64,000 nt of DNA from the NCBI GenBank assembly GCA_035561135.1, contig DATMYA010000048.1, forward strand, positions 124,001 through 188,000, given 5' to 3'. Below the pieces are notes generated by a model, which was not told the origin of the DNA, did no database searches, and saw nothing but the letters and a program-made list of their open reading frames with translations. The DNA is from Clostridia bacterium. GTDB lineage: Bacteria; Acidobacteriota; Terriglobia; Terriglobales; Acidobacteriaceae. Made by a program: the position numbers and the translations under genes. Positions within the stretch are counted from its first letter, which is position 1. Each line of letters opens with the position of its first letter. Positions 30,312 to 60,040 of the stretch are shown piece by piece.

Positions 30312-31226
30312 CTACTTGGCCGCTTCCACCACATCGCCCGGATTGATGTCTTCGAGCGCCGAGGTCACCATGACGGTGGCCGTATCGGCCGTCGTGTTGA
30401 GCACCATAGCTTCTCCGACGCCACGATACGGCAATTTGCGCAACTCGCGTTTGCCGATTTTAATCGCATCGGTCTGTGTGTCCTCGCGCGCCGGAGCGTC
30501 CAGCGAGACGGCATCCGACGGAGGCATTTTCTTCGGATCGTAGTTTCGAGAAATCCGCACGTAGTCTCCGGGCTTCAAGCCTTGATCAGACCCAATGTTG
30601 ATGTAGAGCTTCTGCGTGACTCCGAGAAACTGGTCGAACCCGCGTCCCATTAGAACCCGGCCAGTCGACCCACTGGACGGCATGAAATGTTCGAATGACG
30701 GACGTTTGGCGAACACCACGTTCGGTCTATCGACGAATGGAATCACGGTGTCGCCAGCAACCATCGGTTCGCAACTGAATTCCACCATCGCCACTGCGAT
30801 GCTTTCTTCCAAGCGTATGACGCGCACGCGCCCTAAGTCGGCGAACAGATCGCCCGACCGGCGCAGCAACTTGTTCTGACCCGGAAAGATTTCGTACTGG
30901 TTCGGGTCGCGCTGCTTTCGGATCACTCTGTATTGGGTTCCAACCGAATATCCGGAGCCCTCCAGGTAAATCAATTCGCGCTCGGAGAAGCGTGCGGCAT
31001 GAGGAGCCTGGTAGCCGGCGACGATGTGATTGGCTTTCGGGAATTCTTCGCGCGTCACAAACCCGGCACACTGAATATCCGAGTAGCTTGGTGCCGCCGC
31101 ACGTTCGGCGATGTTGCTGCTGAACATCTGCGGCGGGGTTGCCTGTTGCGCGTCTGCCGCGGGCGCCGCGTCTTGCGCCAGCGCGCTCGCACACAGAATC
31201 AACAGCATAGAAGCCAATTTCTTCAT
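30312..31226 (-). CDS. Secreted protein with repeated beta-barrel-like motifs
   Basis: 304 residues. Signal peptide 1-17 (KKLASMLLILCASALA|Q). No enzyme motif. Three sections share an xxxGDxVx pattern: VAGDTVIPF (about 156), NIGSDQGLKPGDYVRIS (about 210) and ALEDINPGDVVEAAK at the C-terminus. Such IGxxxGxxxGDxx strands resemble the C-terminal domain of FlgT and other envelope proteins. The middle contains FPGQNKLLRRSGDLFADLGR. Probably periplasmic or outer-membrane associated; function unknown. Confidence 0.7.
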   Translation of the reverse strand: MKKLASMLLILCASALAQDAAPAADAQQATPPQMFSSNIAERAAAPSYSDIQCAGFVTREEFPKANHIVAGYQAPHAARFSERELIYLEGSGYSVGTQYRVIRKQRDPNQYEIFPGQNKLLRRSGDLFADLGRVRVIRLEESIAVAMVEFSCEPMVAGDTVIPFVDRPNVVFAKRPSFEHFMPSSGSTGRVLMGRGFDQFLGVTQKLYINIGSDQGLKPGDYVRISRNYDPKKMPPSDAVSLDAPAREDTQTDAIKIGKRELRKLPYRGVGEAMVLNTTADTATVMVTSALEDINPGDVVEAAK

Positions 31227-31573
31227 AACTCCTCCGGATGCCGGCCCGCTCTGCGCTTGACCGGAACTGCGTCCCCAGTTCTTTGGCTCACAGCTCTCTT
31301 GATAACTTACCAGCGCCCAAGCTGCCGTTCGAATCCTAAGTGTTATCCTTGAACTCAGCAGCTCCTATCCTGCACTAAGACGGGCACTTGCACCGTACGC
31401 TAAGATTCGCGCACCTTGCCAGCCGAAACCGTAGCAAAGGGAACCCCGAGAAGCAAGGTTACCTCAGGACGCCGTATTAACCGTCAAGGTACGCTATCGC
31501 AAGTTTTCTGCCGCCCATGCAACTGAGGGGTTGCATCTCTTTTGGTGCATCTGTACCATCACGACGCGAGAAA
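31227..31573. other. Divergent intergenic region before aroDE
   Basis: About 345 bases between divergent genes. No repeat, riboswitch or coding gene recognised. Confidence 0.4.
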
Positions 31574-33205
31574 ATGAATGACTCCCCGACAACTTACGCC
31601 AGGCGATTGCTGCCAATACGGCTGCCGAGAGTCTGCGTAGCCGTTACCGGATCCGACATTAACGAGATGGTCGAGAAGGCCGAATCGCTGGTCCGCGACA
31701 ATCCGCTGATCGAGTTTCGGCTCGACTATCTCAAGAATCCTGCGACCGCTTACCAGCGCTTGCGGCGTCTGTTCGAGTACCGTCCCGACGCCATAGCCAT
31801 CGCGACCTGCCGCCGTGCGGTGAATGGTGGCAAGTTCCGCGGCTCCGTCGCCGCCCAGCTCGAGATCCTAACGAAAGCCGCTGCAGCTGGCTGCCAGATG
31901 GTCGACGTGGAACTCGAAACCGCCGCAGCCCTGAAGCCTGCCGAAATCGAGAAGCTGCGTTCTCGCGCCTCGCTCATCCTGTCCCATCACGATTTCCGGG
32001 CCACGCGCAAGATTGACGAGACCTTTGACCGGATGAAGCAGTTCCCCGCCGACTTCTTCAAGGTCGTCACCACCGCCACGAGTCTTTACGACAACGTGTT
32101 GATGATGAAGTTCCTGCAGCAGAACGGCGATCGCCACTCTCTCATCGGCCTCTGCATGGGCGAGCAAGGCATTATCAGTCGCGTGCTCGGTCTCCGCGCA
32201 GGTAGCGCGTTCACGTTCGTCGCCGCCAGTGCAGGCGAAGAGACTGCCCCCGGACAGATCACCGCGCGCGAACTGCGCGACACCTACCGCATCGAGCAGG
32301 TCGATGCCGCCACTCGCGTATACGGCGTGGCCGGCGACCCCGTCTCGCAATCCCTCTCGCCCGTCATGATGAATGCGGCCTTCCGGCGCGAGAACGTGAA
32401 CGCCGTCTATCTCTCGCTACACGCCAAAAGCCTCGATGACCTGCTCCGCTGCGTGCGCGACATTCCCATCCATGGCCTCAGCATCACCATGCCTTACAAG
32501 CAGGCCATCGTTGAGCATCTCGATAACAGCGACCCGCTCACGCAGAAGGTTGGCGCCTGCAACACGGTCGTACGATCGCAGGACGGCAAGATCTACGGCT
32601 TCAACACCGATGTCGCCGGAATCATCAGTCCGCTCGAGCAGCGCATCGCGCTCAGCGGCGCTCGCGTGCTGGTCATCGGCGCTGGCGGAGCCGCACGTGC
32701 GGCGGTATTCGCCCTGCGCAGCCGCAATGCCGAAGTCTTCATTCTGAACCGCACCGCGGCCAACGCACAGAAACTTGCACGCCAGGCGCACGCGAAGACC
32801 GTTAAACGCGCAGATATCAAAAAGCTCAGCTTCGACATCATCATCAACGCCACTCCGCTCGGCATGGGCGCCAACAAGCAGTCGCCGCTCGATGAGAAGG
32901 AAATCCGCGCCAAATATGTTTTCGATCTCGTCTACAACCCGGCGGAGACGCGCCTCATGAAGATGGCGCGCGCACAAGGCCTGCATGTTATAGGTGGAAT
33001 CGAAATGTTCGCGAACCAGGGCGCACGACAATTCGAGATATGGACCGGCAAGCCTTCACCCAAGGACGAGATGCGCTACGTCGTCAGCCGTGCCTTAGAG
33101 GACCGAGCAGCCTCCGAAGAGAAGACGAACGGAAAACCCGCAGCGAAAGCCGCGACCAAAGCCGTCGCCCGCACGGCCAACAAAACTGTTCAACGCAAGA
33201 AGTAG
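31574..33205 (+). CDS. aroDE: Bifunctional 3-dehydroquinate dehydratase / shikimate dehydrogenase
   Basis: 543 residues from the ATG at 31574. Residues about 20-240 are a type I dehydroquinase: IEFRLDYL, LILSHHDF (catalytic His) and FFKVVTTA (Schiff-base Lys). Residues about 250-510 are shikimate dehydrogenase: GDPVSQSLSPVMMNAAF, SITMPYKQAI (catalytic Lys), GACNTVV, FNTDVAGI, and the NADP site VIGAGGAARAAVFAL with NRT. It performs two consecutive steps of the shikimate pathway, a fusion also known in plants. A Lys/Ala-rich tail (KPAAKAATKAVARTANK) follows. Confidence 0.96.
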   Translation: MNDSPTTYARRLLPIRLPRVCVAVTGSDINEMVEKAESLVRDNPLIEFRLDYLKNPATAYQRLRRLFEYRPDAIAIATCRRAVNGGKFRGSVAAQLEILTKAAAAGCQMVDVELETAAALKPAEIEKLRSRASLILSHHDFRATRKIDETFDRMKQFPADFFKVVTTATSLYDNVLMMKFLQQNGDRHSLIGLCMGEQGIISRVLGLRAGSAFTFVAASAGEETAPGQITARELRDTYRIEQVDAATRVYGVAGDPVSQSLSPVMMNAAFRRENVNAVYLSLHAKSLDDLLRCVRDIPIHGLSITMPYKQAIVEHLDNSDPLTQKVGACNTVVRSQDGKIYGFNTDVAGIISPLEQRIALSGARVLVIGAGGAARAAVFALRSRNAEVFILNRTAANAQKLARQAHAKTVKRADIKKLSFDIIINATPLGMGANKQSPLDEKEIRAKYVFDLVYNPAETRLMKMARAQGLHVIGGIEMFANQGARQFEIWTGKPSPKDEMRYVVSRALEDRAASEEKTNGKPAAKAATKAVARTANKTVQRKK

Positions 33206-33211
33206 AATTAG

Positions 33212-33239
33212 CGAGCGCAGCGCAGCTTTTCGGCGCTCG
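33212..33239. terminator. Possible terminator between aroDE and the GGDEF gene
   Basis: Arms CGAGCGC and GCGCTCG with a 14-base loop between convergent genes; no T-run. Confidence 0.35.
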
Positions 33240-33266
33240 GATAACGCTCTATTTTGATTTGTGCTC

Positions 33267-34379
33267 TCAGGAGACTTCTTTTCGCTTTGCGGCGATCTCT
33301 GAGTAGAGCACTACGCGATTCCGCCCGCGAGATTTTGCTTCATAGAGTGCAACGTCGGCGAACTCTATCAGGTCGCGCTTGAACTGCGCGTCACGGTCGA
33401 AACAAGCGATTCCTATGCTGACGGTCACGTGTTCGATCTCGCTTGGCGAACCAGCAAAGAATTTTGCCTGCTCGATCGCACGGCGTAATCGTTGTGCCAC
33501 AAGCAGAGCGCCTGGGCCGCTGGTTTCCGGCAGAATGATTACGAATTCCTCGCCACCATAGCGGGCCGCCGTATCAATTTCGCGCATGTCCTTCATCAGC
33601 ATCGAAGCCACGTCGCGCAGCACCTGGTCGCCCACGTGGTGGCCGTAAGTGTCGTTGAACGTCTTGAAAAAATCGATGTCGATCATCAGCAGCGACAGGA
33701 GCGTTTTTTTACGCTCGGCGCGCTTGATCTCCAACTCCAGTTGTTGTTCGAAGTATCCGCGAGTTTTTAGCCCCGTCAGGTAGTCTGTGAATGCGAAGCG
33801 GATCAGCCCTTCGTTGCCGAAGTCTCGCGTCAGCAGGTTTTCGGCGACCAGCGTCAGAATCCAGAGCAACTGTGCGTCTTCCTGGGTAAAGCTGTCCGGA
33901 TCGGCACTGTAGAGTTGCAGCGAGCCCATCACCTTGTTGCTTACGAGCAGCGGCACCACCAGTGCGGCCTTGCAGTTCAGGCCTGCGAGCAAAGCGTCCG
34001 CCTGCACGTTGCACCCGGTGGTCACCAGCAGCGGACGGCCGTATTTTGCCGCCCAGAAATTCAGAATGTTCCCCCTCGTGTACGTTTCCAGATCGGGATC
34101 TTCCATGCCACGAGTCACACGCAAATGCATCTGCTGCTGGTCTTCGTCCCAGAAGTAAACCATGCCACGACGGAAGCTGGCGATCTCGGATGCAAAGTCG
34201 CAGAGCATGTTCAGGGTGGCATCGATTTGCATCTGCAAACCGGCCAACATGCTCAGGCGCAGCAAGACGTTCACCTCCCGCCAGCGTCGTGCAACCGTCT
34301 CTTCGCCCAACTCCGAAAAAACCTCGACTACAAACTTTTCAGGAGGACAAGAGTCAGCCGCTGTGTAATCTAAGGACAT
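33267..34379 (-). CDS. Diguanylate cyclase with GAF sensor domain
   Basis: 370 residues. A GAF domain (about 45-195; FASEIASFRRGMVYFWDEDQ, AALVVPLLVSNKVMGSLQLY) is joined to a GGDEF domain (about 205-365). The active site is RYGGEEFVIILPE, a GGEEF variant normally active. The inhibitory I-site RxxD is intact (REID, five residues before GGEEF), so product feedback is likely. LLMIDIDFFKTFNDTYGHHVGD supplies the metal Asp. No membrane helix: a cytosolic sensor. It makes c-di-GMP from two GTP. Divergent from the HisKA gene. Confidence 0.94.
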   Translation of the reverse strand: MSLDYTAADSCPPEKFVVEVFSELGEETVARRWREVNVLLRLSMLAGLQMQIDATLNMLCDFASEIASFRRGMVYFWDEDQQQMHLRVTRGMEDPDLETYTRGNILNFWAAKYGRPLLVTTGCNVQADALLAGLNCKAALVVPLLVSNKVMGSLQLYSADPDSFTQEDAQLLWILTLVAENLLTRDFGNEGLIRFAFTDYLTGLKTRGYFEQQLELEIKRAERKKTLLSLLMIDIDFFKTFNDTYGHHVGDQVLRDVASMLMKDMREIDTAARYGGEEFVIILPETSGPGALLVAQRLRRAIEQAKFFAGSPSEIEHVTVSIGIACFDRDAQFKRDLIEFADVALYEAKSRGRNRVVLYSEIAAKRKEVS

Positions 34380-34793
34380 TCGATGGGCTCGTACCAGCGT
34401 ACGTACACACTCCTAGCTCAGCCGTACATGGCAGCACGAAGTCTGCCAATCTCCAGTATCGATACTTTCCATGCGGCGCTTTACTGTGCAACTCCTCTTT
34501 CCTTTAGCGACTCCCAATCAGCCAAACAACTCACGGATTCCCAGCGAGGCCCGTAGCAGAGTTACCCATTGCAAACGTACGAGTTCCCGAATTGTGAAAA
34601 CCGGGCGTCGAAGAGGGAATGCAGATTCACACTTTAGTTCCGCCGGACTCGATATCAGGTAACTCGAGCCTAGTAGAATCAGCGCCCTACGGAACTTGCC
34701 CATTTTGGAACAGGTCGTGCAGCTACTCTCGCCGGAGTAGATACGGCGGAGTAGATATTGCTATTGCAAGAAGATAAAGAATGGAGGTTCCCG
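34380..34793. other. Divergent intergenic region between the cyclase and HisKA genes
   Basis: About 410 bases. No coding gene, repeat or sigma-54 (-24/-12) site was found by eye. Confidence 0.4.
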
Positions 34794-35060
34794 GTGCATG
34801 ACGATTTGATTGCCGAACTTAGTCACCAGATCAATAGCCCTCTGGCCGCTATTCGGAACGCGATCTACCTGGCCGCGAGCCGCACAGCCGATCTAGAAGT
34901 GCGGCGATACTTGGAACTAGCGGACTCGGAAGTGGTTATCATCGCCAGCGCCTTGCGGAATGCCCGCAGCTTCCATCCAGCAGCAAGGAAGGCGCAGGGC
35001 TCGGCTGACATGCAGGCGCAAGCGGCAAGTACGAAAGCAAAACGAGTAGCAGCAGCGTAG
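34794..35060 (+). CDS. Stand-alone HisKA (histidine kinase dimerisation/phosphoacceptor) domain protein
   Basis: 88 residues from the GTG at 34794, chosen because TGGAGG lies 6 bases upstream; the frame continues upstream to a TTG. Residues 1-55 match the two-helix HisKA domain: LIAELSHQINSPLAAIRNAI holds the H-box, with the phosphorylatable His about residue 10 and the NSPLAAI turn, followed by a second helix (RRYLELADSEVVIIASALRN). The residue after His is Gln instead of the common Glu or Asp. No ATPase domain (N, G1, G2 boxes) exists here or downstream in any frame. The tail is Ala/Lys/Gln-rich. It may be a phosphotransfer or kinase-interacting protein. Confidence 0.75.
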   Translation: MHDDLIAELSHQINSPLAAIRNAIYLAASRTADLEVRRYLELADSEVVIIASALRNARSFHPAARKAQGSADMQAQAASTKAKRVAAA

Positions 35061-35395
35061 CCCTCCCCCTAAGTAGTCTCCCCTCAAGATGATGCCAATC
35101 TGTAGAGCAGCGAATACGGCGCTGCGTGCTTAAATGCGAGTTTGTTGTCAACGCCGGCTACGAAAATGAATTGATAGGGGCTTTAAAAGCAAACTACTCC
35201 CGACGGAAACAAGTCACCGCCAGTATATGTATGAAGCAAATCACCCGTGCGGCGGCAATGACCTTTATCTCGGGTCCGCGACTTCGTTCCCGGCCCCGCC
35301 CAACTCGTGAAGTCTTCCTTCAAGCTTCCGGCACAGGCCCGCTGATGATGTGCGTTTTTGCTGCGAATGCCGCTGCGAACCGTGTGCTGTCTTCC

Positions 35396-35497
35396 AGAGC
35401 GTAGCGCAGTGGAGTCGCGGAGTCGAAGGACCCCTATCATCTGCACTGAGCTGGCAAAAGGGGTCCTTCGACTCGGGCTTACGCCTTTGCGAAAAAG
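35396..35497. repeat. Dispersed hairpin element, near-full copy
   Basis: A perfect 15-bp inverted repeat AGTCGAAGGACCCCT (35421-35435) / AGGGGTCCTTCGACT (35459-35473) around GCACTGAGCTGGCAAA. The same core and spacer occur at 48031 and 53931. The outer GTCTTCC arm is degraded here. Confidence 0.8.
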
Positions 35498-35506
35498 CTC
35501 GGCAAC

Positions 35507-35565
35507 TCAGTAGGTAGCTTAGTAGGTCAGTAGGTCAGTAGCTCAGCGACTTAGTAGCTCAGTAG
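35507..35565. repeat. CTCAGTAG short-word tandem tract
   Basis: Words CTCAGTAGGTAGCTTAGTAG, GTCAGTAGGTCAGTAGCTCA, GCGACTTAGTAGCTCAGTAG in tandem: a degenerate 8-9-bp unit, 10 bases after the hairpin element. Related tracts flank the copies near 48.0 and 60.0 kb. Confidence 0.75.
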
Positions 35566-35798
35566 CCCCGACTGCCTGCCTTTAGCGCCTGCGCAGTCGT
35601 CTGCTGCCTGGTGTGCCAAATGCCGCGTCCATACGGCACTTCCATTGCTATTTCCGCATCACAGGATTACTATGATGATGGACCTGATACCGTCCACTTT
35701 CTGCGATATTCGTTCTTCTCACCGCGTAGCAGTCGGCCCACTGAACGGTTTTACCGAGGCGCGTCTCCCCCCGCCCGGGCGAAATTGGAGAGACGAAG

Positions 35799-36533
35799 AT
35801 GGCGTGGTATGCATACTGCATCACTGAGCAAAGTATCTTTCAGAACGTTCGAGTCCGTCGCCCATTCCCCATTGAGAATCTTCGAGGCATCAACGGGACG
35901 CCCGTGTTTGGCTATCCGAGCGGCGAGTTTGCTGTGATCGTCAGCGAATACTCGCACGAATCGGCGCTCACACAATCCTCCGTGGTGGAACACGCGCGTG
36001 TTGTGAGCGAGTGTTTCCGCAACTCCACCGTGCTGCCATTCCGGTTCGGCACCATTTTCGAGAACGACGACGCGCTTCGACAGGCGGTTCGCACCAACCG
36101 CAAGGCTTTCGGAGATAGCGTAGCGCATCTGCGCGGCAAGGCCGAAATGCACATCAAGGTCACCGTGCGTGGAGATGGTTCAATTCAGACCTTTTCCGAC
36201 GTGCTGCCGGCGCAGGCTGGCGGCGAGTACCTTATGCGGTTGCGCGAGAAAGCCAGTCGCGATCGGGAACGGCAGACCAAGGCACGCGCACTCTCGGTTC
36301 AGGTGCACAAGCTTTTCAATCCGCTTGAAGAAGAGGTTAGTTGCAAGAAAGTTGTTGCGGGCGGCATGACTATCGACATCGCCCACCTGATCGACACCAA
36401 GCAGATTGAGAAGTACCAGAACCGCTACAGCACTGCCAGTCGCCAACTTAAGAATTGCGAATTGGCGATCAGCGGCCCCTGGCCGCCTTACCACTTCATG
36501 CCTGGCAAACTACGAACAGTCGGGAACGACTGA
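35799..36533 (+). CDS. GvpL/GvpF-family protein, without other gas-vesicle genes
   Basis: 244 residues covering the whole GvpL/GvpF domain: MAWYAYCITEQ at the N-terminus, VLPFRFGTIFEN (about 78-89), then RGKAEMHIKVTVRG (about 113), GGEYLMRLREKASRD (about 140) and the family end CELAISGPWPPYHFMPG (about 222). In gas-vesicle clusters these proteins assist shell assembly. Here no gvpA, gvpN, gvpK or other gene is present, so another role is likely. GAGAGACG ribosome-binding site. It is followed by a terminator and a sigma-54 response regulator on the same strand. Confidence 0.9.
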   Translation: MAWYAYCITEQSIFQNVRVRRPFPIENLRGINGTPVFGYPSGEFAVIVSEYSHESALTQSSVVEHARVVSECFRNSTVLPFRFGTIFENDDALRQAVRTNRKAFGDSVAHLRGKAEMHIKVTVRGDGSIQTFSDVLPAQAGGEYLMRLREKASRDRERQTKARALSVQVHKLFNPLEEEVSCKKVVAGGMTIDIAHLIDTKQIEKYQNRYSTASRQLKNCELAISGPWPPYHFMPGKLRTVGND

Positions 36534-36987
36534 TTTGGGGAATCCAAGAAGGCGGCCATCCAGGCCGCCTTTCACTTTGCGTAATTGAGCCACTGAGCTG
36601 CTGAGCCCCTAAAGCACCCAGCTACCCCGAAGAGTGGGCACTGCCAGGCTAACTTGGCAGTTATCATCCCCCTGTGCTGCCCAACGAAGAAAGCAATCCT
36701 TGGCTAGCTTTAGGATATTTTTGCCAATTCTTGGAATTTCTATAGAATGTCTGCATCTAAGCCGGTGGGTGTGGATGGTGGTGCCCCTCGGTCCCCCTCT
36801 GACGTGGCCCCGATCCACCGATCTCCACGCCCCGCGGGCGACCTTTTGTTGGATGTGGTGATTAACTCCTAAACAGGTTCGACTCCGTTCGTAGCGATTC
36901 CAGGTACGGTTTTCACAAAGTTCCATAGCCGCGGGACGAGAGAGATGTCACTGCGATTCCGCAGCTTGTATCGGAGGGGCTGAAGGA
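36534..36987. other. Spacer upstream of the sigma-54 response regulator
   Basis: About 450 bases. It contains the GvpL/F terminator, a short CACTGAGCTGCTGAG tract (36585-36608) and an inverted repeat CTGCCA/TGGCAG near 36643-36661. No -24/-12 site fitting GG-N10-GC was convincing. Confidence 0.45.
36549..36571 (+). terminator. Terminator of the GvpL/F gene
   Basis: Stem AAGGCGGCC/GGCCGCCTT with loop ATCCA, followed by TCACTTTG; 16 bases after the stop. Confidence 0.8.
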
Positions 36988-38490
36988 ATGGTGCCGACGC
37001 CGAAGACGAGAGTGCTGGTGGTTGATGACGATGCCGCCACGGCCAGGTTTCTGAGTTCGTATCTGATTCGCAGGAATTTCGACGTAAGCGTCGCAGCGAC
37101 GGGCGAAGAAGCCATTCGCATGTTCCGCGTCTACGATCCCACGCTAGTGCTGCTTGATCTCGCCATGCCGGGCATGAGTGGAATCGACACCCTTGAACGC
37201 CTTAAGCAGATTAAGCCGGAGGTTTCCGTAATCATGCTCTCTGCGCAGAGCAGTCCAGAGATCATCTTCAAAGCCTCCAAGCTCGGCGCGGACGATTACA
37301 TTGGTAAGCCATTCGAGCCCAAGGAACTCGACCTGCGCATCAGCAAGGTTCTGGAAAAACAGAGACTCGTAACCGAAGTCACTCAATTGCGCGACCAGGT
37401 GCGCCGCCAGTCCGACTTCACCATGCTCTTCGGCACGAGCCCCAAGATGGAAGAAGTCAAGAACACCATCGAGCAGGTGGCAGACACCACCGCGACGGTC
37501 CTCGTACGCGGCGAAAGCGGCACCGGCAAAGAGGTCGTGGCGCGCATGGTTTACGCACAGTCATTGCGCCACGAGAAGCCGTTTGTGAAGGTAAATTGCG
37601 CCGCTATTCCACATGAGTTGCTGGAAAGCGAACTCTTCGGGTACGAACCCGGAGCTTTCACGGGCGCCAATCGCCAGAAGCTCGGCAAGTTCGATCTGGC
37701 AAACAACGGAACCATCTTCCTCGACGAGATCAGCGAGATGCACCCGTCGCTCCAGGCGAAGCTCCTGCACGTTTTGCAGGACGGCGAATTCGCCCGCCTG
37801 GGAGGTAAGCGCGATATTGCGGTCGACGTTCGCGTCCTCGCCGCCACCAACAAACCGCTCGAACGGGCCGTGGAAGAAGGCCTTTTCCGCGAAGATCTTT
37901 TCTACCGCCTGAACGTCGTTACCATACACATACCGCCGCTTCGCGAGCGCCGTGAGGAGATACCCATCTTCCTCGATTTCTTCCTGCGCAAATACAGCGA
38001 GTTCTATGGCAAAACACCGGCTCAGTTCAGCGACTACGCCGTCGGGCGAATGATGGAATATACCTGGCCGGGGAACATACGAGAATTGGAGAATCTCGTA
38101 AAGCGTTACACCATCGTGGGCAATGAGGCGCAAATTATCCGCGAACTCTCTACCCACAAACCCATCGTCTCGTCCCTGTCGGGGAATAGTCCCATCTGGG
38201 GCATTAAGGAACCGGCGATTGCTGCGCCGCCGCATAACTCGCAACCGGCTGTTCCCGCACCCGTCTCCAATGCCATGGGCGAAATCGAAATGCCTTCTCT
38301 GCTGGAGATTGGAAAACGCGCCGCCATGCTCGCCGAGCGCGAAGCGATTGAACGCGTACTTGCCCAAACGCGTTGGAATCGCAGGCAAGCCGCCAAGATC
38401 CTCAAGATCAGTTACAAGGCCCTACTCAACAAACTCAAGGCGATGGAAGAACAGAATCAGGCGAATCAGGCTAAGCAACATCCTGCTTAA
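36988..38490 (+). CDS. Sigma-54-dependent response regulator (NtrC/AtoC type)
   Basis: 500 residues in three domains. Receiver (about 7-125): VLVVDDDAATARF acidic pocket, phospho-Asp in LVLLDLAMPGMSG, and Lys in IGKPFEPKEL. AAA+ sigma-54 activator (about 145-375): Walker A GESGTGKEVVARM, sigma-54 contact loop GAFTGAN, Walker B GTIFLDEISEMHP, and arginine-finger region FREDLFYRLNVV. A Pro-rich linker leads to a Fis-type helix-turn-helix (about 445-490; WNRRQAAKILKISYKALLNKL). It activates sigma-54 promoters when phosphorylated. No full kinase is adjacent; the solo HisKA protein lies 1.9 kb upstream. Confidence 0.96.
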   Translation: MVPTPKTRVLVVDDDAATARFLSSYLIRRNFDVSVAATGEEAIRMFRVYDPTLVLLDLAMPGMSGIDTLERLKQIKPEVSVIMLSAQSSPEIIFKASKLGADDYIGKPFEPKELDLRISKVLEKQRLVTEVTQLRDQVRRQSDFTMLFGTSPKMEEVKNTIEQVADTTATVLVRGESGTGKEVVARMVYAQSLRHEKPFVKVNCAAIPHELLESELFGYEPGAFTGANRQKLGKFDLANNGTIFLDEISEMHPSLQAKLLHVLQDGEFARLGGKRDIAVDVRVLAATNKPLERAVEEGLFREDLFYRLNVVTIHIPPLRERREEIPIFLDFFLRKYSEFYGKTPAQFSDYAVGRMMEYTWPGNIRELENLVKRYTIVGNEAQIIRELSTHKPIVSSLSGNSPIWGIKEPAIAAPPHNSQPAVPAPVSNAMGEIEMPSLLEIGKRAAMLAEREAIERVLAQTRWNRRQAAKILKISYKALLNKLKAMEEQNQANQAKQHPA

Positions 38491-38945
38491 TAGTGGCACG
38501 TCAGTTCATATTGACATTTTGTGATAGTTGCGGATTTACCACACCGGCCTGTGCAAAACTCCTGCGGGACACTCTCTAAACGTCCAGACAACAATTGTTT
38601 CGGATTTCCCTGCGGCTACTTACCTTTGCAGCAAGTTTTGGATTCCTAAGTGCAACTTAGGTTCCCAACAAAAGAGGCCGTACAAGTGACTTTAACCCTC
38701 TTCCCAGTTTCTCGACTTCTCTCTCGACGTTCCGCTCGTCGGAACACCTTGCATCGCCTTCCCTGAACTCCCTCCCGCCCTTCGCCTCTTTTAAAGCGAC
38801 CTTGAGTTATGGGTCGCTTTTTTCTTGGTTCCACTTGTTTCGAAGATTGGCGGCAAAACTAATACCCCGCAAACTCGACAAGATTTTCAATACCCGCATT
38901 TGCGATTCGATTGCGCCTCTGATCTCCGCCGACGATAATTGGCAG
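38491..38945. other. Spacer between the response regulator and M28 peptidase genes
   Basis: About 455 bases. It carries one strong terminator (38793-38823). An in-frame extension of the peptidase through the terminator stem was rejected. No other feature seen. Confidence 0.5.
38793..38823 (+). terminator. Rho-independent terminator upstream of the peptidase gene
   Basis: Stem AAAGCGACC/GGTCGCTTT with a loop of about 10 bases and a run of six T. It lies 300 bases after the response regulator stop, so that transcript or an unseen small RNA ends here. Confidence 0.85.
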
Positions 38946-39884
38946 ATGTTGCGCCGCATCGCTCTCGCGTGCTCTCTTGTCCCTGTTCTACTGAGTCTGC
39001 TTGTGCTTGGGGCGCTGACAGTGCCGCTGGCAGCGCAGGAAGGATCCGCAGGCAAAGCGGCCAGTCGAGGGATACGGTACCGACGCCTCCTGCCGGAGAC
39101 GATCCAGGAGCGCCTCGCTGCCGCTCCGCGCAACAACGCCGTCCGCGGAAACCTGTTGCGCGAGTCGTTCTCGGCGGCGGGCTGCTCGCAAACATCGGAA
39201 GCCGTTGTGAAAGGCGAAAAGCTTCCCAACGTCATCTGTACCCTGCCAGGCAAATCCGACGGCGTCATCATTATCGGCGCTCACTTCGATCACGTCGTTT
39301 CAGGCGATGGTGTCGTTGACAACTGGAGCGGAGCTGCACTCTTGCCAAGCCTCTTCGAATCCGTGCGCGTTGACGAACGGGAGCACACGCTCGTGTTCAT
39401 CGGATTCACTGCCGAAGAAAAGGGACTGATCGGCTCGAAAAGTTACGTGAAATCGCTGACGCGCGAGCAGCGGTCGAACATCCTCGCCATGGTCAACATC
39501 GACACTCTGGGCCTTTCGCCGACGAAGGTGTGGGGCTCGCACGCCGATCCGGCACTTGTTAAAGCGCTCGCTCACATCGCCAGCATGATGCATCTGCCGG
39601 TCGCCATCGTGAATGTAGAAAACGTTGGAAGCGCCGACTCCGAAGCCTTCCGGGAAAAGAAGATTCCTGCGATTACGATCCACTCGGTCACCGAATCGAC
39701 GCTGCCAATCCTGCATAGCGATCGCGACCGTCTCAACGCTATCCGGCCCGACGACTACTACCAGTCCTACATGCTTCTGGCCGGTTACATCGTCTATCTC
39801 GACCAGAACCTTGACCGCACTCCTGCACCGGCAAACGTTGCGAGTGCGGGAGCCACAAGCACAACTCCTTCGGAACGCAAGTAG
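38946..39884 (+). CDS. Secreted M28-family zinc peptidase
   Basis: 312 residues from the ATG at 38946, which begins a signal peptide (RRIALACSLVPVLLSLLVLG...LAAQ). The longer frame crosses a terminator hairpin. The two-zinc ligand set of M28 aminopeptidases is visible: GAHFDHV (about 98), DNWSGAA (about 112), FTAEEKGLIGSKSY (catalytic and metal Glu, about 140), VNIDTLG (about 169) and LHSDRDRLNAI (about 255). It probably cleaves N-terminal residues of peptides in the periplasm or outside. Weak ribosome-binding site. Confidence 0.9.
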   Translation: MLRRIALACSLVPVLLSLLVLGALTVPLAAQEGSAGKAASRGIRYRRLLPETIQERLAAAPRNNAVRGNLLRESFSAAGCSQTSEAVVKGEKLPNVICTLPGKSDGVIIIGAHFDHVVSGDGVVDNWSGAALLPSLFESVRVDEREHTLVFIGFTAEEKGLIGSKSYVKSLTREQRSNILAMVNIDTLGLSPTKVWGSHADPALVKALAHIASMMHLPVAIVNVENVGSADSEAFREKKIPAITIHSVTESTLPILHSDRDRLNAIRPDDYYQSYMLLAGYIVYLDQNLDRTPAPANVASAGATSTTPSERK

Positions 39885-40055
39885 GCGCTTATCACTGCCG
39901 CGAGCACGATACACACCAAGTTATTTGTGATTCTTTCGTGCTGATACCTGCATCAAAACATTTTCAAAAGTGGCGCTTCTGCAGTTGACGCACTCCGCGG
40001 TCGCACATATGATTCCCGTTCTGGTTTGAGTCGCCGGGGCGCCGGGAAAGAGTTC

Positions 40056-40430
40056 ATGGAAAAAAAGAAGCTGGAAACGTTCAAAAAACGACTCGAGGAA
40101 AGACAGCGCGAACTGCGGCACAACGTCACGCGCACGGAACAGGACGGCCGCAACGCCGATGTCGGCGATATGGCGCAGGACATTGCCGACCGTGCGTCCA
40201 GTTCCTATCAAAAGGAGTTCCTTTTCCATCAGAGCAATACCGAGCGACAGACGCTGCAAATGGTGGAAGGCGCGCTGAGCCGCATACGCGAAGGCAGTTT
40301 CGGCGAGTGTGTCTCGTGCGGCAGCGAGATCAATCCCAAGCGCCTTGAAGCCGTGCCCTGGACGCGTTTCTGTATCGCATGCCAGGAGAAGCTTGAACAA
40401 GGTCAACTGGAGCAGGAAACGGGCACGTAA
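40056..40430 (+). CDS. DksA/TraR-family zinc-finger protein
   Basis: 124 residues. An N-terminal coiled coil (1-75; EKKKLETFKKRLEERQRELR) with the acidic tip region DVGDMAQDIADRASS precedes a C4 zinc finger CVSCGSEINPKRLEAVPWTRF...CIAC (about 86-110). Such proteins enter the RNA polymerase secondary channel and adjust transcription, often with ppGpp. The tip lacks a clear DXXDXA motif at the exact position, so DksA identity is not certain. GGGAAAGAG ribosome-binding site. Confidence 0.88.
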   Translation: MEKKKLETFKKRLEERQRELRHNVTRTEQDGRNADVGDMAQDIADRASSSYQKEFLFHQSNTERQTLQMVEGALSRIREGSFGECVSCGSEINPKRLEAVPWTRFCIACQEKLEQGQLEQETGT

Positions 40431-53744: not shown

Positions 53745-54055
53745 AGCTATCCCTCCGATGCTGGAGCGCGCGATTGTACAACATAGCAGTACTACAAGCC
53801 GTGCATTCGGCAGCGTGATGGTCGCGAACACAGAAAGATACCTCGGGTCAGGCCAGACTGCAGCAGGCCCCGCGTTCCTTCAGCAAGGCCTTGCACCGGT
53901 GGATCGCTTTACTTGCGTTCGCCTCGCGGTGTCTTCCTGGGCGAAGCGACAAAGTCGCGGAGTCGAAGGGCCCCTCTGCACAGAGCTGGCAAAAGGGGTC
54001 CGTCGACTCCGGGCTTACGCTCTTCGCTCGGAAGACAGAATCGTTGGAGGCGAAT
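53745..54055. other. Spacer with a full hairpin element
   Basis: About 310 bases between two minus-strand genes: promoter region of the lipocalin-like gene and, at 53931-54036, a hairpin element directly downstream of the TetR gene. Confidence 0.5.
53931..54036. repeat. Dispersed hairpin element, full copy
   Basis: Outer arms GTCTTCC (53931-53937) / GGAAGAC (54030-54036); inner arms AGTCGAAGGGCCCCT (53961-53975) / AGGGGTCCGTCGACT (53994-54008), with a GCACAGAGCTGGCAAA segment between. It shares sequence with 35396 and 48031. Confidence 0.85.
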
Positions 54056-59995: not shown

Positions 59996-60040
59996 AAAAC
60001 GGGTCCTTCGACTCGGGTCTACGCCCTCGCTCAGGAAAAC
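59996..60040. repeat. Right half of the dispersed hairpin element
   Basis: AAAACGGGTCCTTCGACTCG, GGTCTACGCCCTCGCTCAGG and AAAAC match the right half of the copies at 48031 and 53931; the left half is lost. A CTCAG tract follows at once. Confidence 0.7.

Follow-up and report, generated by a model that had tools for sequence, protein, structure and literature searches.

What does an intact GvpL/GvpF gene do in a genome that carries no gas-vesicle shell gene? The question is raised by one gene in the window, as we call the whole 64,000-nucleotide stretch of DNA that was analysed, which comes from a member of a major soil family. An earlier note had described a complete, isolated copy and had suggested that it has been repurposed. 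In three papers, GvpL and GvpF figure as components of the machinery that assembles gas vesicles (PMC2963123, PMC11445434, PMC9501494), and the first of these describes a gvp cluster from an acidobacterium that contains two L/F genes (PMC2963123). A literature search by title and abstract opening, which left subscription papers mostly uncovered, returned nothing about stand-alone GvpL/F in Acidobacteria. The features of the gene and its surroundings are:

31517..33205, forward strand: fused aroD-aroE gene (DHquinase_I plus shikimate dehydrogenase; 3-dehydroquinate dehydratase), from Pfam.
35645..35673, forward strand: promoter-like element TTGCTA-17-TACTAT, weak alone, read from its conservation in relatives.
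35787..35792, forward strand: ribosome-binding site GGAGAG, read from the sequence, 6 nt before the ATG.
35799..36533, forward strand: stand-alone GvpL/GvpF gene, 244 aa, from the ORF, Pfam (166.1 bits), the fold (Z 19.5/18.3 to GvpF), and the clade.
36550..36570, forward strand: hairpin AGGCGGCC/GGCCGCCT after the stop, a possible terminator, read from the sequence.
36988..38490, forward strand: sigma-54-dependent response regulator, in a minority of loci the downstream neighbour, from Pfam.

The window ORF encodes a complete GvpL/GvpF protein. It opens with ATG and carries both motifs that had been taken as signs of completeness, VLPFRFGTIFEND and AISGPWPPYHF. The Pfam model GvpL_GvpF (PF06386) matches at 166.1 bits (cut-off, 23.6) and is covered from position 1 to 244 of 245. 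The ribosome-binding site mentioned in the earlier note is present, and a CGGAGAG-like block is kept there across the aligned upstream regions. The claim of an own terminator stood only in part: a hairpin does follow the stop codon, but its T-run is poor and a terminator scan makes no call there. A role for this hairpin as a terminator is plausible.

An AlphaFold model of the protein (mean pLDDT, 90.1) predicts the GvpF fold over the whole chain. Compared with GvpF crystal structures, the model gave Z scores of 19.5 for 6l5d (Anabaena PCC 7120) and 18.3 for 4qsg (Microcystis aeruginosa) over 220 residues, with the next entry at 9.0; Foldseek TM scores were 0.69–0.71. While the folds are alike along the whole chain, sequence identity to these two proteins is only 14–18%, and the source genome lacks gvpA, gvpK, and gvpG. 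Two NCBIfam models remained below their cut-offs, GvpL at 41.9 bits (cut-off, 200) and cyanobacterial GvpF at 30.8 bits (cut-off, 350). This is a strict test, since a cluster-linked L/F protein of one relative with a gvp cluster (G227) also scores under these cut-offs (100.9 and 125.8).

We searched the whole source assembly (4.19 Mb, 95 contigs, completeness 100) with four models: PF00741, which we take to cover GvpA, GvpJ, and GvpS, and those for GvpK, GvpG, and GvpN. PF00741 had 0 matches anywhere in the genome, as did GvpK and GvpG. GvpN gave two AAA+ matches only, whose scores of 24.5 and 22.4 bits stay well under the cut-off (266.8). In three cluster-bearing relatives used as controls, GvpK and GvpG were detected in 3/3 and GvpN exceeded its cut-off in 2/3 (G227 fails). 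Closer to the gene, seven neighbouring proteins of at least 100 aa (within 30312–40427) were scanned with Pfam, and none is a Gvp protein. Thus, the lack of a gvp cluster nearby is confirmed and extends, for GvpA/J/S, GvpK, and GvpG, to the genome. A complete gvp cluster elsewhere without its own L/F gene, which the earlier note had named as the case that would speak against it, was not found in the source genome.

The protein might nevertheless still serve a protein shell, if Pfam had missed a nanocompartment of another kind or a GvpA-like protein that has diverged strongly. PF00741 is short (39 positions) and a diverged relative could score below its threshold; moreover, the window protein keeps residues of the wider L/F family. 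We consider this explanation quite unlikely, as GvpK and GvpG are absent too, yet were detected in all three cluster-bearing relatives, and no shell-like protein is present among the scanned neighbours (again, from 100 aa up).

The copy is isolated in the sense that it has no gvp neighbours, but it is not the only GvpL/F gene of its genome. A second, divergent one lies elsewhere:

C70:70515-71150 (L072:7489-10972), on another contig: short divergent GvpL/F copy of the same Pfam family.

The short copy resembles the window gene in its Pfam family and in residing in a genome without gvpA. It differs in its place in the tree, among cluster-linked copies, and in what comes after it, a PAS-histidine kinase and then a receiver protein. 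Relatives of this kinase are found within the gvp clusters of two other genomes, G227 (63% identity over 697 aa) and G037 (56% over 680 aa). The combination of a short L/F gene, a related kinase, and a receiver recurs in two further genomes, G147 (where the kinase is split into two pieces) and G143, neither of which has GvpA. A C70-like copy is present in 51 of the 250 family genomes searched, and 43 of these 51 have GvpA. Judging from these sequences, the short copy is probably what remains of a lost gvp cluster, with its signalling pair kept. No such mark of a relic is seen in the window gene.

GvpL/F is near-universal in the family, and GvpA is not. PF06386 (E ≤ 0.001) matched in 389/398 family genomes (387 above the cut-off) and in 254/256 good genomes, a count of L/F of any kind, as a Pfam match alone cannot separate stand-alone from other copies. 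PF00741 matched in 54/398 family genomes and 33/256 good ones. None of the nine L/F-less genomes, seven of which are under 90% complete, is in the GvpA list, and L/F is therefore present in 335/344 GvpA-less genomes (333 above the cut-off). A class-wide draw of 250 genomes gave 82 with GvpL/F; the 20 genomes with GvpA are all among them. Since L/F is found in nearly all sampled members and the vesicle shell gene is missing in most, the stand-alone L/F probably has a job other than vesicle assembly. Databases annotate such proteins of Acidobacteria as 'GvpL/GvpF'; this annotation should not be taken as evidence of gas vesicles.

A profile specific to the stand-alone proteins sharpened this picture. 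We built it from 32 such proteins (profile A1) and searched it against 247 genomes of the phylum. The scores were bimodal: 26 genomes of one family (f1) scored 364–407 bits, and no other match, be it cluster-linked or from another family, exceeded 86 bits. Fourteen of the 26 genomes had supplied rows to the profile, and the remaining 12, which are not in it, score alike. Five of the 26 top matches read through one stop; this is probably the tail of the profile running past the gene end, as the Pfam matches in the same genomes have none. The same profile found 538 relatives among named genomes. The best 80 of the 538, which share 66–75% identity, come without exception from records of Acidobacteria (Acidobacteriaceae, Acidobacteriales, Terriglobales, Terriglobia, Ca. 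Sulfotelmatobacter, and Ca. Angelobacter). From the names of these relatives and two shared contigs (L095 = L050 in G054; L102 = L054 in G119), we infer that f1 is Acidobacteriaceae in the broad sense. For comparison of loci, the best 80 were joined to 20 f1 loci chosen from the class draw, mostly one per genus, of which the window is one (L065). The resulting 100-locus set leans to close relatives, and the two shared contigs, with identical proteins, are counted twice in it.

The stand-alone proteins also form a lineage of their own, as emerged from the comparison with vesicle-linked copies that the earlier note had proposed. In a tree of 73 proteins, a branch with 100/100 support has 27 stand-alone f1 proteins, six stand-alone f7 proteins, and one f2 protein (L081) on one side. 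On the other side are 35 cluster-linked L/F proteins, three short orphan copies, and one other. Three GvpA-bearing genomes whose gvp clusters have their own L/F (G047, G078, and G227) are represented on both sides. Distinct from the vesicle-linked L/F of the sampled class, the stand-alone lineage is found both in genomes that have vesicle genes and in genomes that lack them. The f7 proteins (L066-L071) and L081 are members of this clade that come from other families and share 28–37% identity with the window protein; none of the six f7 genomes appears in the class-draw list of GvpA genomes, and the f2 genome of L081 has GvpA. The f7 rows nest within f1 on a long branch, a placement that may be false, and may reflect either transfer or a long-branch effect. 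With its midpoint root, 16 open branches among 70 inner ones, and the f7 rows within f1, the tree does not give a direction of change.

The frame of the stand-alone gene has been well maintained. It is open in 98 of the 99 relatives' copies, and all 99 have ATG at the aligned start position. In the exception, L163, the frame is broken by a stop at codon 184, which is either a real loss or an assembly error. Across 371 pairs at 80–97% nucleotide identity, window included, the median dN/dS is 0.038 (range, 0.008–0.116), and these alignments indicate that the gene is under strong purifying selection. Such values bear on one alternative, namely that the window gene is itself left over from a gas-vesicle cluster that has been lost, and now drifts with no function. 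One could point to the relic-like short copy beside a cluster-type PAS-histidine kinase in the same genome, to gvpA in 54/398 family genomes, and to the one stop-interrupted copy among 99. Against these stand the near-universal presence of L/F, a dN/dS of about 0.04, the 98 open frames, and the tree, which sets the window gene in a clade apart from the cluster-linked L/F of the sampled class. Retention and selection largely refute the relic explanation, which we regard as most improbable for the window gene; it fits the C70 copy better.

The data thus support a role for the window protein outside gas vesicles. The repurposing suggested by the earlier note fits in this respect, given L/F in 389/398 genomes versus GvpA in 54/398, the low dN/dS, and coexistence with vesicle-linked copies in G047, G078, and G227. 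On the other hand, a change from a vesicle role to another one is not given by an unrooted tree, and the gene is not the sole L/F of its genome. A strongly constrained L/F in nearly every sampled species, mostly without the shell protein, offers a natural means of telling a job of the fold itself from its job in the vesicle.

To describe what the two lineages share, we compared the window protein with vesicle-linked GvpF/GvpL of Acidobacteria gvp clusters (for example, those of G227, G047, and G078). They belong to the same Pfam family and share core residues, including GPW.P..F, but identity is 18–24% and they fall in a separate clade at the 100/100 branch. Seventeen positions are kept in the stand-alone proteins and in at least 70% of the cluster-linked ones: Y4, Y6, G30, S49, H65, V68, P80, F83, G84, G113, E116, L197, G226, P227, W228, P230, and F233. 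Other residues are fixed in 21/21 f1 stand-alone rows and differ in most of the 32 cluster rows, among them W3, E10, C182, H196, and H232. Position 10 is E in 5/32 cluster rows; at position 196, 16 rows have F, 10 have C, and 2 have H; at position 232, 18 have N and 1 has H. These special positions come from alignment counts. A four-residue Cys/His site that would include C7 was rejected, as C7 is fixed in f1 but is also a cysteine in 11/32 cluster rows.

We suggest that the stand-alone proteins are a distinct, vertically kept GvpL/F subfamily acting outside gas vesicles, probably as a soluble cytosolic chaperone or adaptor for a client other than GvpA. In two papers, GvpF is thought to keep the hydrophobic GvpA in solution and GvpL to serve as a platform (PMC11445434, PMC9501494). 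By analogy, the stand-alone protein would retain the client-binding framework of GvpF, that is, the residues common with vesicle-linked L/F (Y4, Y6, H65, P80, G84, G113, E116, L197, and GPW.P..F), and would hold a different client. The clade-fixed residues W3, C182, H196, H232, and others would help to define the new client or ligand. An adaptor or chaperone with a different client would agree with the kept framework, the changed specific positions, and the broad persistence of the gene where GvpA is absent. A shared fold alone, however, does not imply that client binding is kept. A broader version is possible but rather doubtful: GvpL/F may not be intrinsically a gas-vesicle protein but an ancient cytosolic client holder that has a core function in Acidobacteriaceae. 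The vesicle-linked proteins would then be one specialised branch of it (or the reverse), and C182, H196, and H232 would mark a new client or ligand site.

The main rival to the chaperone or adaptor is a ligand- or metal-sensing regulator that acts on transcription or metabolism. The chain ends in a ferredoxin-like domain (residues 113–236) whose alignments to domains of this fold, ACT and PII included, reach Z 7–9, although this is the usual background for so common a fold. C182, H196, and H232 are present in 21/21 f1 rows, whereas only 2/32 cluster rows have H196 and 1/32 has H232; still, the three need not meet in space, and C7 does not set the clade apart. Nearby in the window are genes for a GGDEF protein, a HisKA stub, and a sigma-54 response regulator, but the neighbours are inconstant. 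On balance, we think a sensor unlikely.

Neighbouring genes do not point to a function more directly. The fused aroDE gene is co-directional and within 3 kb upstream in 48 of the 84 loci that have at least 3 kb upstream, window included. Co-transcription with aroDE is unsupported because, where aroDE is the adjacent gene, the gap is often 220–430 bp and a promoter-like element lies between, so we rejected an operon and regard aroDE as a common neighbour only. The sigma-54 regulator was matched in 16/100 loci; in 14 of these, window included, it lies downstream and is co-directional. A dksA-like gene follows GvpL/F in 36/100. With aroDE at 48/84 and the dksA-like gene at 36/100, none of the neighbours recurs often enough to indicate a pathway. 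PADLOC gave no match, and a role in anti-phage defence was dropped. Between the GGDEF gene and GvpL/F, a 100-aa ORF (34758–35060) has HisKA as its sole Pfam match, without the kinase ATPase domain.

The promoter-like element between aroDE and GvpL/F draws its credibility from relatives. There it takes the form TTGCNN-17/18-TANNAT, and in a free scan of 98 upstream regions (the window and 97 loci; L065, L128, and L163 left out) the best site ends 111–166 nt before the ATG in 91. A position-limited scan found scores of at least 10 in 82/98 upstream regions versus 6/294 Markov controls, with a consensus partly derived from the very upstream regions scored. The element is retained in relatives with other neighbours (L048 and L063). 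In the window it scores 9.5, outside the 82, and a plain consensus scan does not report TTGCTA-17-TACTAT; weak by itself, it would not be believable without the conservation in relatives. A structured 5' leader was also considered, from a covarying hairpin seen by eye, and rejected. RNAalifold gave no consensus for 83 leaders, the median MFE z was -0.18, and Rfam had no match on the leader; the negative result on structure is weak because the leader alignment is gappy.

Farther upstream, at 35420–35474, lies an inverted repeat, GAGTCGAAGGACCCC...GGGGTCCTTCGACTC. Its 15-mer has 11 copies in the genome and 0 in a backward-read control, and near copies are present in the window at 53960–54009 and 60000–60014. 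By its sequence, this appears to be a dispersed repeat element. Adjoining it, at 35510–35566, are runs of GTAGGTCA/GTAGCTCA-like units, seen by eye, which perhaps belong to the same repeat.
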